A DNA stretch of 64,000 nt from Callaeas wilsoni (taxonomy: Eukaryota > Chordata > Aves > Passeriformes > Callaeidae), in the NCBI GenBank assembly GCA_013398955.1, contig VWPU01008518.1, forward strand, positions 1-64,000, given 5' to 3'. This document shows, one piece after another, positions 29,301 through 39,560 of this stretch. Below the pieces are notes generated by a model. That model saw nothing but the letters and a program-made list of their open reading frames with translations, did not search any database and was not told the origin of the DNA. Made by a program: the position numbers and the translations under genes. Numbering within the stretch: position 1 is the first letter of the stretch; every line of letters begins with the position of its first letter.

Positions 29301-31695
29301 AGGCGGAGAGGACAAACCAAGCGTGGGCGAGCACTAGCTGGTGGTGAGCTGGAGCTGCTTTTACCTGCTGTGTAGTCCTCTGCGATGTAGCTGTGCTCGT
29401 GCAGGATCTCCTCCATGCGGCTGAGCGTGACGGCCGCGAAATGCCCGGGGTACTTCAGCTGCAGCAGCCGCTGCAGGTACACGGCAGCCTGGCACCCCCC
29501 CAGGTTAATGCGCTTGCAGTTCTTGGCATCCAGCCTCAAAAAGGCAAACAGACACAGCTCAGGCTGGGGGAATTCACAGGAAATCCACATTAAACGGCTC
29601 CTGCTCTTCCCCTGAATTATTTGATTTCTGTAGATGAATATTCACAGATAAATACAAACAGTCCAAGGTTCAGTTACCAGACAATCTAACACACCTGCTT
29701 TTCTCAGGCAACAGCACAATTGCTGCTTTGTTTACTACATTTTTTTCTGAAAGGCTCTGTTCTGCTTTTAAAAAAAAACCCAAATATTAAATAATTTTGG
29801 CTACGGCAAGGAGATGTTCTGTTCTAATAAGAGAAGTGATGGTTAGTGGGGCTGAAGGTAGTTTTTTAACCTTTGTAACACTTCGTGGTTGGATGGGTGT
29901 AAACCTTGAAAATTTGAAGCATTTACCAGATATAATAAAGCCACCTCCTGCACTAAGGATTAAAAAAGAGAAAACAAGTAAAAACAGAAAGCAGAGCAAT
30001 GCAGAATAATCAGAATGATAAAAGCCTTAAGCACTGCAGAAGTCTCACACACAGAGCACTTCATTTTGTCCCAAAGCTGCTTTAAAACCTGATTTATGCT
30101 TTCTAATGCCCAGTTTCACTTGGGGCAGATACCCCCTTCTCCCTTTGAAAGTACACATCCAGGCATGAATAGCAACGAAAACACAACACTCACAAGGGCA
30201 GCACTGCTGCTTCAACCCAAAACCCAACAGAACTTAGCAAAATCTGCAAACCTGGTTTTAACTCATCAGAAAAATGATGCGAGTTAATAGGGCGGGGCTG
30301 GAGGAAGAGGTATTTGAATCACTTGAAGTGTCAGTGGCTGCACTGGACTTAAGACACCCAGAACTCACCTGCCTTCTAAAACTGGCAAAATGTGGGTACA
30401 CTGGTACCCTGAGGATATCACCAAGCCGCTGCAGGGCCAGGTCTGCCTTCTGTTGTGGTAAAAGCTGTACAGGCTGTCCACGCCATAGGACACTTTTGGC
30501 ACTTGGTAGCACTCAAAGAGGAGCTCAGACATCATCTGCCTGGAGTACAGAGGATTGCAAACTGCTTCTGTCAGAACAATTGGGTGATCCACACAACCCT
30601 GGGAGAAACAAGGGAAAAGAACAGTAACAAAGGCATGAATGGAAAATCCAGGGTTAATTATCCTTGGTTCTTCTTTTAAGCATCAGCAAAAACTCCTCCA
30701 AAACAGGCATGAGAAAGCACTTTATTTGCAGGCTATTAATCATGAAAGTTAAGTTATATCTAGTGTTTAAGGGGGTAAAAAAGACGTTAATGTTAATTCA
30801 ACCAAAGAATAAACTCATAACAGTGGAGCAAAATGGACTTTTAAAGGCATATATAAATTATTAAAAATATAAGTAACCAAAATCTATGCAGTGAGGGAGT
30901 GAAAACCAGCAGAAGTTTAGCTCCGCTCTGGGTAAAGCTTTCAAACTGGTGCTGTCATGCAGGCAAAGGGCTCCATGGTCTGAGAAGCAACTCTCAACAC
31001 AGCCAGGTGTACAGATGGTCAGTAAACACGACTAATAAGAGCATTACCGAACAATAAGTTTAAGGGAGTATGTTTAGATATTAAGAAAAGATTCCTCCCT
31101 ATGACGGTGATGAGGCACTGGAACAGGCTGCTCAGGGAAGTTGTGGCTGCCTCATCCCTGGAAGCGTCCAAGGCATGGAAATCTGAGCAACTTGGTCCAG
31201 TGGAAGCTGCTCATGCCCCTGGCAGGGGGTGGAGCGAGGTGGTCTTCAAGGTCCCTTCCAACCCAAACCATTTTGGGACCCACGGGCGGCTCAGCCCTGG
31301 CCCAGCGGTACCTGCGAGGAGACGCCGAGGCGCTGAAAGACGTGGTCGAGGAGCAGCTCCTGCAGCTCCAGCTGCACGGGCACGTTGCGGTCGAAGGGCG
31401 AGCGCAGCAGCCACCGCAGGGGCTCGGGGCTGCCCAGGTCGTTCCCCACCTGGGTCTCTGCGCCGGCCCCGCCGCGGGCCCCGCGGCTCCGCGCCGCCAG
31501 CGAGCGGAACCGCAGCAGCGGCTCGGCGGGGACGGTGGGGTCGGGGCAGGCCCATCCCGCCCGCGTCTGGAAGGAGCCGTTGTCGATGACCAGCGGCGCC
31601 GGCTGCGGGCTCCGCACGGCCGCGCTCGGTGCCAGCACCGGGTCCGGGGCCCAGCGCGCGTCCCGGAACGCGAACACCCGCGTGGGCGCCGCCAT
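23348..31695 (-). CDS. ACTR5: ACTR5, actin-related protein 5 (INO80 chromatin-remodelling subunit), nine exons
   Basis: ARP5 is a nuclear actin-fold protein that, with IES6/INO80C, forms a module of the INO80 complex needed for nucleosome sliding and DNA repair. Coding exons (minus strand, high to low): 31695-31312, 30598-30369, 29535-29366, 28555-28338, 28002-27820, 25874-25752, 25214-25075, 24190-24058, 23599-23348. All introns are GT-AG and all phases agree, giving 1,833 nt and 610 residues against 607 in human. Visible landmarks are the N-terminal actin phosphate-loop-like [37 protein letters not shown], a charged coiled coil at about residues 295-335 ([20 protein letters not shown]), an acidic linker around 396-436 and the actin signature [11 protein letters not shown] at 497-507. 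The ARP5-specific insertion occupies about 260-435. The ATG at 31,695 matches the human start and lies in a CpG island. The C-terminal tail after VPIRLPKQ is diverged, as expected. Confidence 0.97.
27058..27190 (-). mobile_element. CR1 fragment in ACTR5 intron 5
   Basis: Plus-strand text begins AATCACAGACTCATGGAATG and carries GCCATGGGCAGGGACACC and CCACAGCTTCTCTGGGCAAC, i.e. the CR1 3' end in reverse. The element is therefore on the minus strand, the same sense as ACTR5, and is only about 130 bp long. Confidence 0.85.
31055..31278 (+). mobile_element. CR1 fragment in ACTR5 intron 1, antisense to the gene
   Basis: This copy is in CR1 sense orientation on the plus strand. It runs from a diverged AGATATTAAGAAAAGATTCC through GAGGCACTGGAACAGGCTGC and ends with the CR1 3' terminus AGGTCCCTTCCAACCCAAAC followed by CATTTT. 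Its 3' end lies only about 35 bases from the splice donor of ACTR5 exon 1 (GT at 31,311-31,310). Confidence 0.88.
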
Positions 31696-34816: not shown

Positions 34817-37800
34817 ATGAGGTATCCCCTGGTTCCCCTGGTGAATGAGCTGACCTTTCCTCTGCTTTTCTTCTGGTTCTGCTTGCCCTTTGTAATGCTG
34901 CTGATCATCGCGATTATCTGGCTACAGCTGCTGCTCAGTGAAGGTAAGTGCAGCAGCTGATCAGGTAAAACGCTGCTCCAGAAAGTTAACTTCCTCTTTA
35001 AAGCACTCTGCTGGCTATTTTTAGGTTAATGCCACTTGTCCCAGGAGGAAACTAAAGGTTTGTTAGTACTGCTGGTACCATATAAAAAACCAAACAAATT
35101 ATTATGCTTTTCTGTTGAAAATGCTTATGAGGCAACCAAGCTGCCACCTACCCTTCTTACACTCTCCCTTTTTCTCAGAGGTAATTTGATTTAAGAAAGA
35201 CAAAGGACAAGTAATTTTCATAGGTTTCTATTTTAAAAATCCCCCAGAAAGCAAGCCTAATCCTCTAATTTTGTACACGTTAAACCCTGGCCTAATAGTT
35301 CTCTTGCACCTCTCCTTTTTGGGAGGGCATGGAGGCTTTATTGGGGGAGCTGGTAAGAGATTCTTTTATGCTGAGGCTGACAGAAAATTTTGAAGGGAGC
35401 AGGACATGCATTTTCATTTATTTGTGTATTTTGCCAGTTTGTTTTTCCACTCCATCCCTGATTCTTTCGTCTAACATGTCAGCAACCAATAGCAGGCTTT
35501 GGTTTAGACTAATAATAAGCTTGTTGTTGCACTCATGAGGATAAAGCTTTGCTACTGTGATCTGATACTGGAGGAAAAAAATCTAATCCCAGCTGAGGAA
35601 ATTCAAATTCAGTGACAAAATATCTATTTTACATAGCTGTGCCACATCCTTACACTGCAGTTGAGTGCTCAGGCTTTTCTCTGGGCAGAGTAATTCTCCT
35701 GATGCTTAGAAGCAGATTTTCAGGTTATTCTTGCTACATTTACATTCACAAATTCTGGCCCTGTAGTGATTGTTGTTAGCACCAGGCCTCCAACTGCTTC
35801 CACAAATGCTCTAAACTACATTTTAACCAGTTAGACTAGACACATTACTACCAGCATATTTACAGAATTAGAACATAAAAGCTTTTCTCAGTTACTAAGA
35901 GATAAAAATAAAAGTGCTCTTTCTAATAACTTCCTAACCAATTCAGTCATATCCACTTCTTTTATGCTAGTTTACAGCAATCACAAGTAAAAGGTAGTGT
36001 TTCAGCTCCTCCTTTAATGTAATTGCTGGCTAAGAGCTAATTGGTTAAAATTAAACACTTGTAAAGGCCTTTTGTTGTCTATTTTGGTTTGAAAATCCTT
36101 TATTTCAGCTGGAAAAGTTCAGAGGAACCTTGTCCAGCTCCTAGATGGAATGTGCAAGGCTTGCAGCCAGGGAGAAAAAGTCACATACAGGTGTTTTACA
36201 TGTTCTTTTTAAACCTGCTTCTAGCACAGATGCCCGGCACAGAAAAGATTGAGAAAGAATCTCCTGATGAGCCTGATTCTGACTCTGAAGATGAACTATC
36301 AGAGGAGGAAAACCAGAGTGATGCATCCAGCACAGAGATGCAAGAGGAGTCAGAATCCAGTGGATCTGTGGGAAGACTGAGGCCCAAACCTGCTTATCTG
36401 AGCTCAAATCCAAGAAAGCAAAAGCACAGTTTTTTTGCTGTGGCCTCAAACAGCTGGTCTCAGAGGCAGAAGATAAGATATTCCCATGCTGAAAGGAGCA
36501 TTTTCTGTAACATCGTGATGGTGAGTAGGGGGACCAGGCTGCCTCCTTGCACATCTATTGCTTTTGTGCCTCAGCTCTGACTTTTTTTCACCTCTGCCTG
36601 ACTCACAGGCCTCTTGGGCAAGACAAAGCTCCAAGATTGGTTTCTGCCTGGTTAATGAGTAACAGGAGGTTCTATTTTCTGCCTTCCCTATTTGTAATGA
36701 CTCCTGTTGCAGACAAGGTAAAGGTAACAAAAAATTGTGCAGAATGGCTATCGTGAATATGTGTGTGTGTATATATATTTAAAGGTATGTATGTATATTT
36801 TAAAAGTCCTTGAGAACTGCTTTTAAAACGGCAAAATTTGCTGCTTATTCCTCTAAGATAAGAAGTTTAACTCAACCATGTGTAGAAACTCTCCTGGTAT
36901 TTATGGCCGATACTACATACTTTAAAAAGTTGCTTCAGATTTCTTACAGTGGAGCATGTGACTGAAAATAAGCTGTATTTCACTTGCTCAATAACAATCG
37001 AGGCCAGAAGTCTCATTGCAAACACAGCAACCCTAATCCTTTTAAGCTTTACACAAATCCCAAAAGATAAATGTCAAGCGGCAGAAGAGCTTTATGTCTT
37101 GTGTGTCTTCTCTTCCCCCGTGCCTTGACTGCTTGTTCCTTTGCAGAAGGGGCTCACAAGGGAAGGCTGCTCTGTGCCTCCACTGTCACTATTCCCAGCC
37201 CTGTCTGCTCAGTTACATTGCTGAGATTTTTGAATTGCAGCAACTGAGGTACTCACTCATCTTTCCTTCCACCAGTTCTGCTGGAGTGCTAACCTTGGTT
37301 AGGCTGGGCAAGCCAAGGACTGGAATCATCTTAAACTGCTGCAGTTATTTAACTAACACACCCTGAAGCTGAGCTTTAGCATGGCATCAGCAATACCTCA
37401 GCTGAAAGCATTTTTAAGACCATTGACACCACCAAGGCAGTACCAAGTCGGTGTAGTAACCATTTAGTTATCACTAATTAATTTCATAGTTTTTCAAAGG
37501 CTAACAATGCTAACAATGAGCTTGGTCTTGTCTAGGGCACCATTTAGTTCTTCTAGAGCTCTTCATGTGTACAACTATTGACTTGAACACTGCAGCTTGA
37601 ACTTTCGTGTAAGACATAACATTTGTTGGTTGTGTTGGGTGGATGAGGGAAGGGAACAAGCACTGGAGGTTTCAAAATCCTGTATATCCTGCTGAAAATG
37701 GAACCTCTTCCAAAGACATCACTGCAGTGACAATTCTGTTCTTCCTTTTCTTCCCCAGCTGTTGTGCACCTTGCTTTCTTCTCTCACCTGGAATTTTGTC

Positions 37801-37998
37801 TGCCTGTTGCTCCAGACCGTTAACATCCTGAGGACTCTACTGCTGCCATCCTATCTGGTTACCTACACGGCTCAGCTGTTTGTTTTGCTGGGTGAAAAAG
37901 CTGGGAAAATCCTGGGCTCCCTGAGGCTGCAGAGCAGAGGACTGTTGCCAGTCCTTCGGAGGAAACTGCAGCTGAGTCAAGCTCAGAGACCCACCTGA
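34817..37998 (+). CDS. ADIG: Adipogenin (ADIG), extended three-exon form
   Basis: Coding exons 34817-34943, 36225-36520 and 37759-37998 join in phase (1, then 0), with donors AAG|GTAAGT and ATG|GTGAGT and acceptors TTCTAG and CCCCAG, giving 220 residues. Exon 1 encodes MRYPLVPLVNELTF and then FWFCLP and a hydrophobic stretch to LLLSE, nearly identical to the N-terminus and single membrane segment of human adipogenin, a small adipocyte protein of endoplasmic reticulum and lipid droplets that binds seipin. Exon 2 encodes a very acidic Ser/Asp/Glu linker (about residues 49-90; DSDSEDELSEEEN) followed by a basic, polar part. Exon 3 encodes a second hydrophobic region (about 142-186, two potential helices) and a basic tail ending QAQRPT. 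Human adipogenin is about 80 residues, so residues beyond ~45 have no counterpart I know. Exon 1 identity is secure. Exons 2-3 are predictions supported by phase, splice sites, composition and a following AATAAA. They could alternatively belong to a separate gene. Confidence 0.8.
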
Positions 37999-38298: not shown

Positions 38299-38304
38299 AA
38301 TAAA
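38299..38304 (+). terminator. ADIG: Candidate ADIG polyadenylation signal
   Basis: AATAAA occurs 301 bases after the proposed ADIG stop codon, in AT-rich DNA followed by TG/T-rich sequence (CTCTGTAGTAGTTCTTACTG). It supports a transcript ending after exon 3 with a 3' UTR of about 0.3 kb. Confidence 0.5.
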
Positions 38305-39090: not shown

Positions 39091-39560
39091 CCTCTCCCGG
39101 GAGGCAGCTTCGGGGGTCTTCTCCAGCGGGGATCCCCCGTTTCTTCCCCCGCCTGCCAGCGGCGAGCGGGAAGGGTGGGATGCTCCCGGCAGATGCGGAG
39201 CGAGCGGGCGCAGCCGCGGCGGGGAGCGGGGCGAGCTGCGGAGGGGCGGGACGGGGGCGGAGGGAAGAAGGGTCTGCTCTCCGGCTCTCGCCTCCGCCGA
39301 GCTCCGCGCCTGGCCCTGGGTGGCTCCGGCCAGCGGGTGCTGAGCCGCGAGGTCGGGAGAGCCCCTCGCTCTTTGCTGCTCCTCATCCTCTTCTTCCTCC
39401 TCCTCCTCTCCGGCCGTGGTCCGCGGCGCTGGCCGCTCCAGGTAGGCGCTGGCCGCTCCAGGTAGGCGCTGGCCGCTCCAGGTAGGCGCTGGCCGCTCCA
39501 GGTAGGCTGATGCTCGGCGCTGGTGGGGGGCTCCGGCCGTGCCCCGCAGCTCCGGGGGTC
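39091..39560 (+). promoter_or_regulatory. CpG island with donor repeats, possible upstream ARHGAP40 promoter
   Basis: Strongly GC- and CpG-rich with GC-box-like sites (GGGGCGGGACGGGGGCGG-type text at about 39,241-39,262). It ends in a tandem array of donor-like sites (39,425-39,508) on the plus strand, as expected for the 3' end of a non-coding first exon. The next plus-strand gene is the ARHGAP40-like RhoGAP. The open frames across the island are compositional and I do not call them. A divergent or non-coding transcript is an alternative. Confidence 0.5.
39425..39508 (+). repeat. Four-copy 20-bp tandem repeat, each unit with a splice-donor consensus
   Basis: The unit GGCGCTGGCCGCTCCAGGTA occurs four times without mismatch at 39,425, 39,445, 39,465 and 39,485, then continues as GGCT. 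At every unit boundary the sequence reads CCAG|GTAGG, a good vertebrate 5' splice-site consensus, with GT at 39,442, 39,462, 39,482 and 39,502. The steps of 20 are not multiples of three. Confidence 0.92.

Follow-up and report, generated by a model that had tools for sequence, protein, structure and literature searches.

Adipogenin of birds and reptiles: a three-exon gene predicted to encode a second membrane-associated module

Adipogenin (ADIG, also known as SMAF1) is described in PMC13083654 as a highly conserved microprotein of 80 residues that binds seipin, stabilises its 12-subunit ring and favours larger droplets. For the mouse, PMC13083654 and PMC7966854 report that adipogenin is expressed in fat cells and associates with the seipin dodecamer, and according to the latter, Adig is predicted to be a type I protein, with the N-terminus in the ER lumen. 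The window analysed here, a stretch of 64,000 nucleotides from the passerine Callaeas wilsoni, includes an adipogenin-like exon that appears to be spliced to two additional coding exons, the last of which encodes a hydrophobic region. This locus raises the question whether adipogenin of birds is a much larger protein than its mammalian counterpart and, if so, how old the additional part is and what it might do.

A three-exon adipogenin gene next to ACTR5

The predicted gene is located on the forward strand and consists of three coding exons (34817..34943, 36225..36520 and 37759..37998; 127, 296 and 240 bases, respectively) that span 3182 bases from start to stop and, when joined, yield an open frame of 220 codons followed by a stop codon. 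The initial annotation proposed that these exons are spliced in phase, and the borders agree with this proposal: the introns are of the GT-AG type, the first starting with GTAAGT (after 34943) and ending in CTAG (before 36225), the second starting with GTGAGT (after 36520) and ending in CCAG (before 37759), and the intron phases are compatible (phase 1 for the first intron and phase 0 for the second). Exon 1 encodes residues 1-42 and contributes the first base of codon 43; it contains a single membrane helix resembling the mammalian one (Kyte-Doolittle hydropathy of 2.95 at residue 16). Exon 2 encodes the acidic linker rich in Ser, Asp and Glu that had been noticed initially (approximately residues 43-92; 18 D/E vs 2 K/R over this range), followed by a basic segment (residues 93-141; 1 D/E vs 10 K/R). 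The second hydrophobic region that had been attributed to exon 3 is seen as two stretches, with best 19-residue Kyte-Doolittle means of 2.0 and 1.5, which flank the conserved Pro171 and are followed by a basic amphipathic tail and the stop codon TGA. The first AATAAA poly(A)-type signal 3' of the stop is found at 38299..38304 on the same strand and is only provisionally assigned to adipogenin because this motif is common, with 73 matches on both strands of the window. A search of the home assembly (1.0 Gb) with exon 2 alone finds a single copy. The three-exon gene model is almost certainly correct.

The identification of exon 1 as adipogenin is well borne out. Residues 1-42 of the window protein align end to end with the adipogenin of PDB entry 9c8d (E 3.5e-10), taken here to be the mouse protein, and the conserved N-terminal MKYPLVPLVNDLTF... 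membrane segment of adipogenin is present. The Pfam family Adipogenin (PF15202) matches all three relatives that were scanned, from a songbird, a turtle and a gecko; the match is confined to residues 1-42 in two of these and reaches residue 69 in the gecko protein P0086. Given that profile positions 43-79 of PF15202 represent the short mammalian tail, a mismatch in this part concerns the tail and not orthology. In a tree of 33 adipogenins, 15 of the 30 inner branches are well supported and the topology fits the accepted relationships if rooted on squamates; the window protein groups with songbirds, as the sister of the contig-encoded protein P0001 (support 94/89).

Head to head with adipogenin, about 3.1 kb upstream of its start codon, lies the first coding exon of ACTR5 (31378..31695, reverse strand), which matches the PDB sequence of Actin-related protein 5 (E 1.5e-33) and, in a tblastn comparison, the N-terminal part of the lizard protein P0107 (79% identity over 106 residues). 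The latter protein, from Phrynosoma, is a predicted model that runs from the first exon of ACTR5 into exon 1 and some of exon 3 of adipogenin, and this fusion probably arose during gene modelling; because the model joins ACTR5 and adipogenin sequences, it supports the same neighbourhood in a lizard. The human ADIG gene, too, has ACTR5 nearby. Thus, with a single copy detected using exon 2, a tree that follows the species tree and the adjoining ACTR5, the locus is, to judge from its sequence, the reptile/bird orthologue of ADIG.

A Pfam search with 20 ORFs from the window, run to name the neighbours, identifies no family in any of them, and a scan of the window for DR1 elements of the PPAR/RXR type yields 10 matches vs 7.7 expected, all of them more than 5 kb away from exon 1. 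Just downstream of adipogenin, a short GC-rich tandem repeat with about four copies of a 20-base unit is seen by eye at approximately 39425-39506; the promoter-like GC-rich stretch around this repeat probably belongs to the 5' part of the gene that follows. Two observations on individual birds can be added. The pheasant protein P0098, which stands for 11 clustered sequences and is listed as uncharacterised, has an unusually diverged exon 1 (26 of 41 residues identical to the window; tree branch of 0.49), although this exon hardly varies elsewhere. In Tyto alba, two loci are listed with 215-residue adipogenins of nearly equal score (P0041 and P0042), which represent either a recent duplication or an assembly artefact.

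Spread and age of the long form

A search started with the 220-residue query retrieves 90 proteins, and a profile search, in which the best 7986 candidates were scored, retrieves 109. Predicted adipogenins of about 220 residues are found in many birds, in turtles (P0064 and P0067) and in lizards and geckos (P0082, P0084, P0086, P0091 and P0093-P0096), and the predicted model from the gharial (P0097) has 197 residues. The exons 2-3 that were sought in other birds, a crocodilian, turtles and lizards are thus matched in all four. A product of about 220 residues, as originally claimed for this locus, is accordingly already present in the public databases as predicted "adipogenin", and it is also encoded by two contigs of at most 1098 and at most 1091 bases, which contain the complete 228- and 221-residue proteins P0001 and P0008. 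The tag "lgn" on these two entries is taken here to denote Logan assemblies of public reads. Such contigs are too short to accommodate introns like those of the window, where the gene extends over 3182 bases, and are most simply interpreted as spliced transcripts. Among the literature matches listed for adipogenin or SMAF1, there is no paper on the long form as far as titles and the beginnings of abstracts go, and a search combining adipogenin with birds found no paper, nor did one on hairpins; the main text of PMC7966854 contains "bird" and "reptil" 0 times, while its Figure S4 may show reptile and bird sequences. As far as these searches show, long adipogenin is an unremarked variant of a known protein and not a new kind.

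Conservation of the additional exons extends well beyond birds. Local alignments of window exon 3 with nine turtle, gharial and lizard proteins score 11.5 to 35.3 SD above shuffled sequences, and those of exon 2 with the same set score 10.6 to 23.1 SD above; in the control, three intronic ORFs compared with one turtle and one lizard protein give -0.8 to 2.0 SD. For exon 3, two turtles share 57-58% of residues with the window and eight squamates 29-41%; for exon 2, the corresponding values are 34-38% and 20-30%. Across 35 rows from birds, turtles, the gharial and lizards, the mean column entropy is 0.48 in exon 1, 1.23 in exon 3 and 1.44 in exon 2, and several exon 3 sites are nearly invariant (Leu158, Leu165 and Leu170 in 34 rows and Pro171 in 32). 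Within birds, read-through peptides flanking exon 2 also resemble one another (e.g., P0072 and P0108), so that the case for conservation rests on the comparisons with turtles, the gharial and lizards and on the transcripts. Given this conservation and the transcript-sized contigs that encode the joined protein, a chance origin is very unlikely, and the exon 1-2-3 structure is, on comparative grounds, real and old.

Two readings would nevertheless question the long protein. According to one of these, exons 2-3 arose through faulty gene prediction, and reptiles and birds actually have a short, mammal-like protein, as might be suggested by 31 UniProt-only bird and reptile adipogenins of 53-94 residues from the same lineages (P0115-P0121, P0123-P0143 and P0145-P0147). 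The tail starts with GK, that is, the donor GTAAG translated by read-through, in 11 of the 21 short entries examined; the kiwi entry P0134 still includes a portion of the genuine exon 2, and in P0132 exon 2 is translated in another frame. No alternative tail shared among the 21 examined entries is seen, and the short entries are therefore taken as annotation errors; among the public adipogenin entries of birds and reptiles, many seem to be in error, in that exon 1 runs on into intron sequence or continues in unrelated segments. With exon 3 conserved from birds to lizards and present on transcript-sized contigs, the artefact reading is extremely improbable and was rejected. The other reading holds that exons 2-3 are mainly included in separate transcripts with another 5' end, which would encode a linker-hairpin protein without the adipogenin helix, the full-length product being minor. 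When profiles for the individual parts are applied to 155 retrieved proteins, exon 3 without exon 1 is indeed detected in 18, among them the named models P0054, P0057, P0062, P0104 and P0105, which start at other 5' ends. However, exons 1 and 3 occur together in 65 of the same proteins (exon 1 only is detected in 59 and neither in 13) and on both transcript-sized contigs, the exon 2 acceptor has the right phase, and some of the 18 proteins resemble genomic read-through pieces (e.g., P0085, P0089 and P0090), which makes this arrangement highly unlikely.

With regard to the age of the second region, an ancestral domain lost in mammals and a gain in birds had both been envisaged. The gain in birds falls, because turtles, the gharial and lizards carry exon 3; the module predates the living reptiles, being present in their ancestor. 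Three sequence searches, the profile one over the best 7986 candidates, reveal no named match beyond reptiles, birds and mammals, and with no outgroup match, either mammalian loss or reptile gain would fit this distribution. The claimed absence of the second region from mammals is upheld, the exon 3 module being found in 0 of 10 named mammal entries. Mammal entries of 72-81 residues include opossum P0149, lemur P0150 and sheep P0154, and some other mammal models have 98-188. The mammalian tails resemble one another and show no detectable likeness to the reptile/bird linkers (7 vs 17 rows; hhalign E and P of 0.23), and tblastn searches of the window with the sheep and opossum proteins match exon 1 only, up to E 1; the possibility that the mammalian tail is a remnant of exon 2 was rejected on these results. 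Among the snakes, two entries are informative (P0101 and P0103); both retain exons 1-2, show no match to exon 3 and end at 146-148 residues, with last residues that differ between the boa and the elapid; a separate loss of the module in snakes is possible.

The linker has followed its own course. Its net charge is -10 to -16 in all 24 bird rows, the window included, and -2 to +3 in all 11 non-bird rows, so that in this sample, the very acidic linker is specific to birds. The number of CK2-like sites in the linker, 5 vs a shuffle mean of 4.5, shows no excess.

The exon 3 module and its candidate splice variants

Exon 3 most likely provides a second membrane association. The form of this association is less clear, and a membrane hairpin of the ER-to-lipid-droplet type has about an even chance of being the right description. 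According to PMC12687460, such hairpins are marked by two hydrophobic helices, an Arg-flanked hinge proline, basic flanks and a mid-helix Trp. As counted over the window protein and 34 relatives, and uncalibrated against ordinary spanning proteins, the hinge Pro171 is present in 32 of 35 sequences, an R or K no more than 8 residues away from the hinge in 30, and a Trp in the first exon 3 helix in 27, those without it being all 8 squamates; the flank is net positive after the module in 32 and before the hydrophobic region in only 19. An AlphaFold2 model led by a lizard sequence contains a helix broken at the hinge (helices 138-168, 175-187 and 192-212; mean pLDDT 53, pTM 0.24, with residues 168-173 below 50 pLDDT), and a bird-led model contains a continuous helix, 130-219 (mean pLDDT 59, pTM 0.21). 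Comparison of the module with solved structures gives no match up to E 10, and comparison with Pfam gives none that is convincing (best E 0.053, for one of nine members).

The window also contains two sites at which the module might be altered by splicing. One is a candidate alternative in-frame acceptor within exon 3, with CAG at 37813-37815, that would reduce the exon to 37816..37998 on the forward strand; both the site and the frame are present in the window, and its use would remove the N-terminal half of the hydrophobic region (residues 142-160). The predicted isoforms P0013, P0016, P0027 and P0045 are without the first 19 exon 3 residues, as splicing at such an acceptor would produce. 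The other is a candidate alternative last exon (KGLTREGCSVPPLSLFPALSAQLHC-stop; 37147..37224, forward strand), the sequence of which is present in the window and which would yield a one-helix product of about 166 residues; predicted proteins of five songbirds (P0048 and P0050-P0053) end in a similar peptide. If used, the 37816 acceptor and the 37147-37224 exon would remove the second anchor partly or wholly.

Two other descriptions of the module have to be weighed against the hairpin. The exon 3 region might span the membrane as one ordinary helix, or two, which would make the protein double-spanning, with the second helix packing on seipin or LDAF1 in the ring and not extending to the droplet monolayer; this is compatible with the two hydrophobic peaks, with the continuous helix in the bird-led model and with a flank before the region that has no net positive charge in 16 of the 35, but the hinge proline and the positive flank after the module, each in 32 of 35, fit a hairpin better, as does the break at the hinge in the lizard-led model (both models being of low confidence), and spanning helices are considered rather doubtful. 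Alternatively, the module could be a passive remnant, an amphipathic tail that rests on the membrane under weak constraint, in line with the lack of an exon 3 match in the snake entries P0101 and P0103, its absence from 10 of 10 named mammal entries and the predicted isoforms that drop it wholly or partly. Weak constraint is hard to reconcile with a column entropy that is lower in exon 3 than in exon 2 (1.23 vs 1.44, 35 rows) and with the near-invariant Leu158, Leu165, Leu170 and Pro171, and a passive remnant appears unlikely.

A possible two-anchor protein and its relation to known systems

If the hairpin description holds, reptile/bird ADIG, at about 220 residues, would be anchored in the membrane twice, by a seipin-type helix and by a monotopic hairpin; the odds of this architecture, predicted from sequence features and models, are roughly balanced. 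As suggested by homology, the N-terminal helix would act like mouse adipogenin, which means that it would bind to seipin in the ER and promote the 12-mer ring. Since the N-terminus of Adig is predicted to be luminal, the linker would lie in the cytosol, and the exon 3 module would form a monotopic hairpin composed of a helix, the Pro171 hinge with a nearby Arg, another helix and a basic amphipathic tail. The protein could then link the seipin ring, located at the neck between ER and droplet, to the surface of the growing droplet; in an alternative placement, the module would sit within the seipin ring as a second, LDAF1-like element. In the predicted splice forms that omit exon 3 partly or completely, the second anchor would be disabled. 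Such a tether is put forward tentatively, as somewhat less than an even bet. Because mammals possess only exon 1 and a short tail, the exon 3 module would not be needed for seipin binding itself.

A broader and rather speculative scenario, which is probably not correct in full, is that adipogenin was originally a two-anchor protein, with a clamp on the seipin ring, a linker and a droplet hairpin, that mammals and, separately, snakes lost the droplet arm, and that birds acidified the linker. Under this scenario, the 80-residue mammalian microprotein would be a stripped-down form, and reptiles and birds would build or hold the ER-droplet neck differently. The long form conflicts with the picture of a conserved microprotein of 80 residues, and if birds and reptiles indeed have a second conserved membrane domain, the work in mouse covers one half of the architecture of the family. 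The long, exon-3-skipped and mammalian forms would then amount to a natural experiment for asking if a cofactor of seipin is able to hold ring and droplet together. The interest of the second anchor lies in its being directly testable, and the way in which migratory birds and poultry store fat gives the question a practical side.

Compared with known systems, the reptile/bird protein combines familiar and unfamiliar parts. It shares with mammalian adipogenin (ADIG/SMAF1, PF15202, PDB 9c8d) residues 1-42, with the same start and helix in a gapless alignment, whereas the mammalian protein, of about 80 residues, has a short tail unlike the reptile/bird linker and does not contain the exon 3 module. 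LDAF1/promethin has paired membrane hairpins. Like adipogenin, it is a small seipin partner according to PMC13083654, and the two are compared here by description only. With the ERTOLD hairpins of GPAT4, ALG14 and UBXD8, as they appear in PMC12687460, the module has in common two hydrophobic stretches, a hinge proline with a nearby Arg and basic residues after the second stretch; it differs from them in that sequence searches link it neither to a solved structure nor convincingly to a Pfam family, and in that here the predicted hairpin is attached to a separate seipin-type helix.
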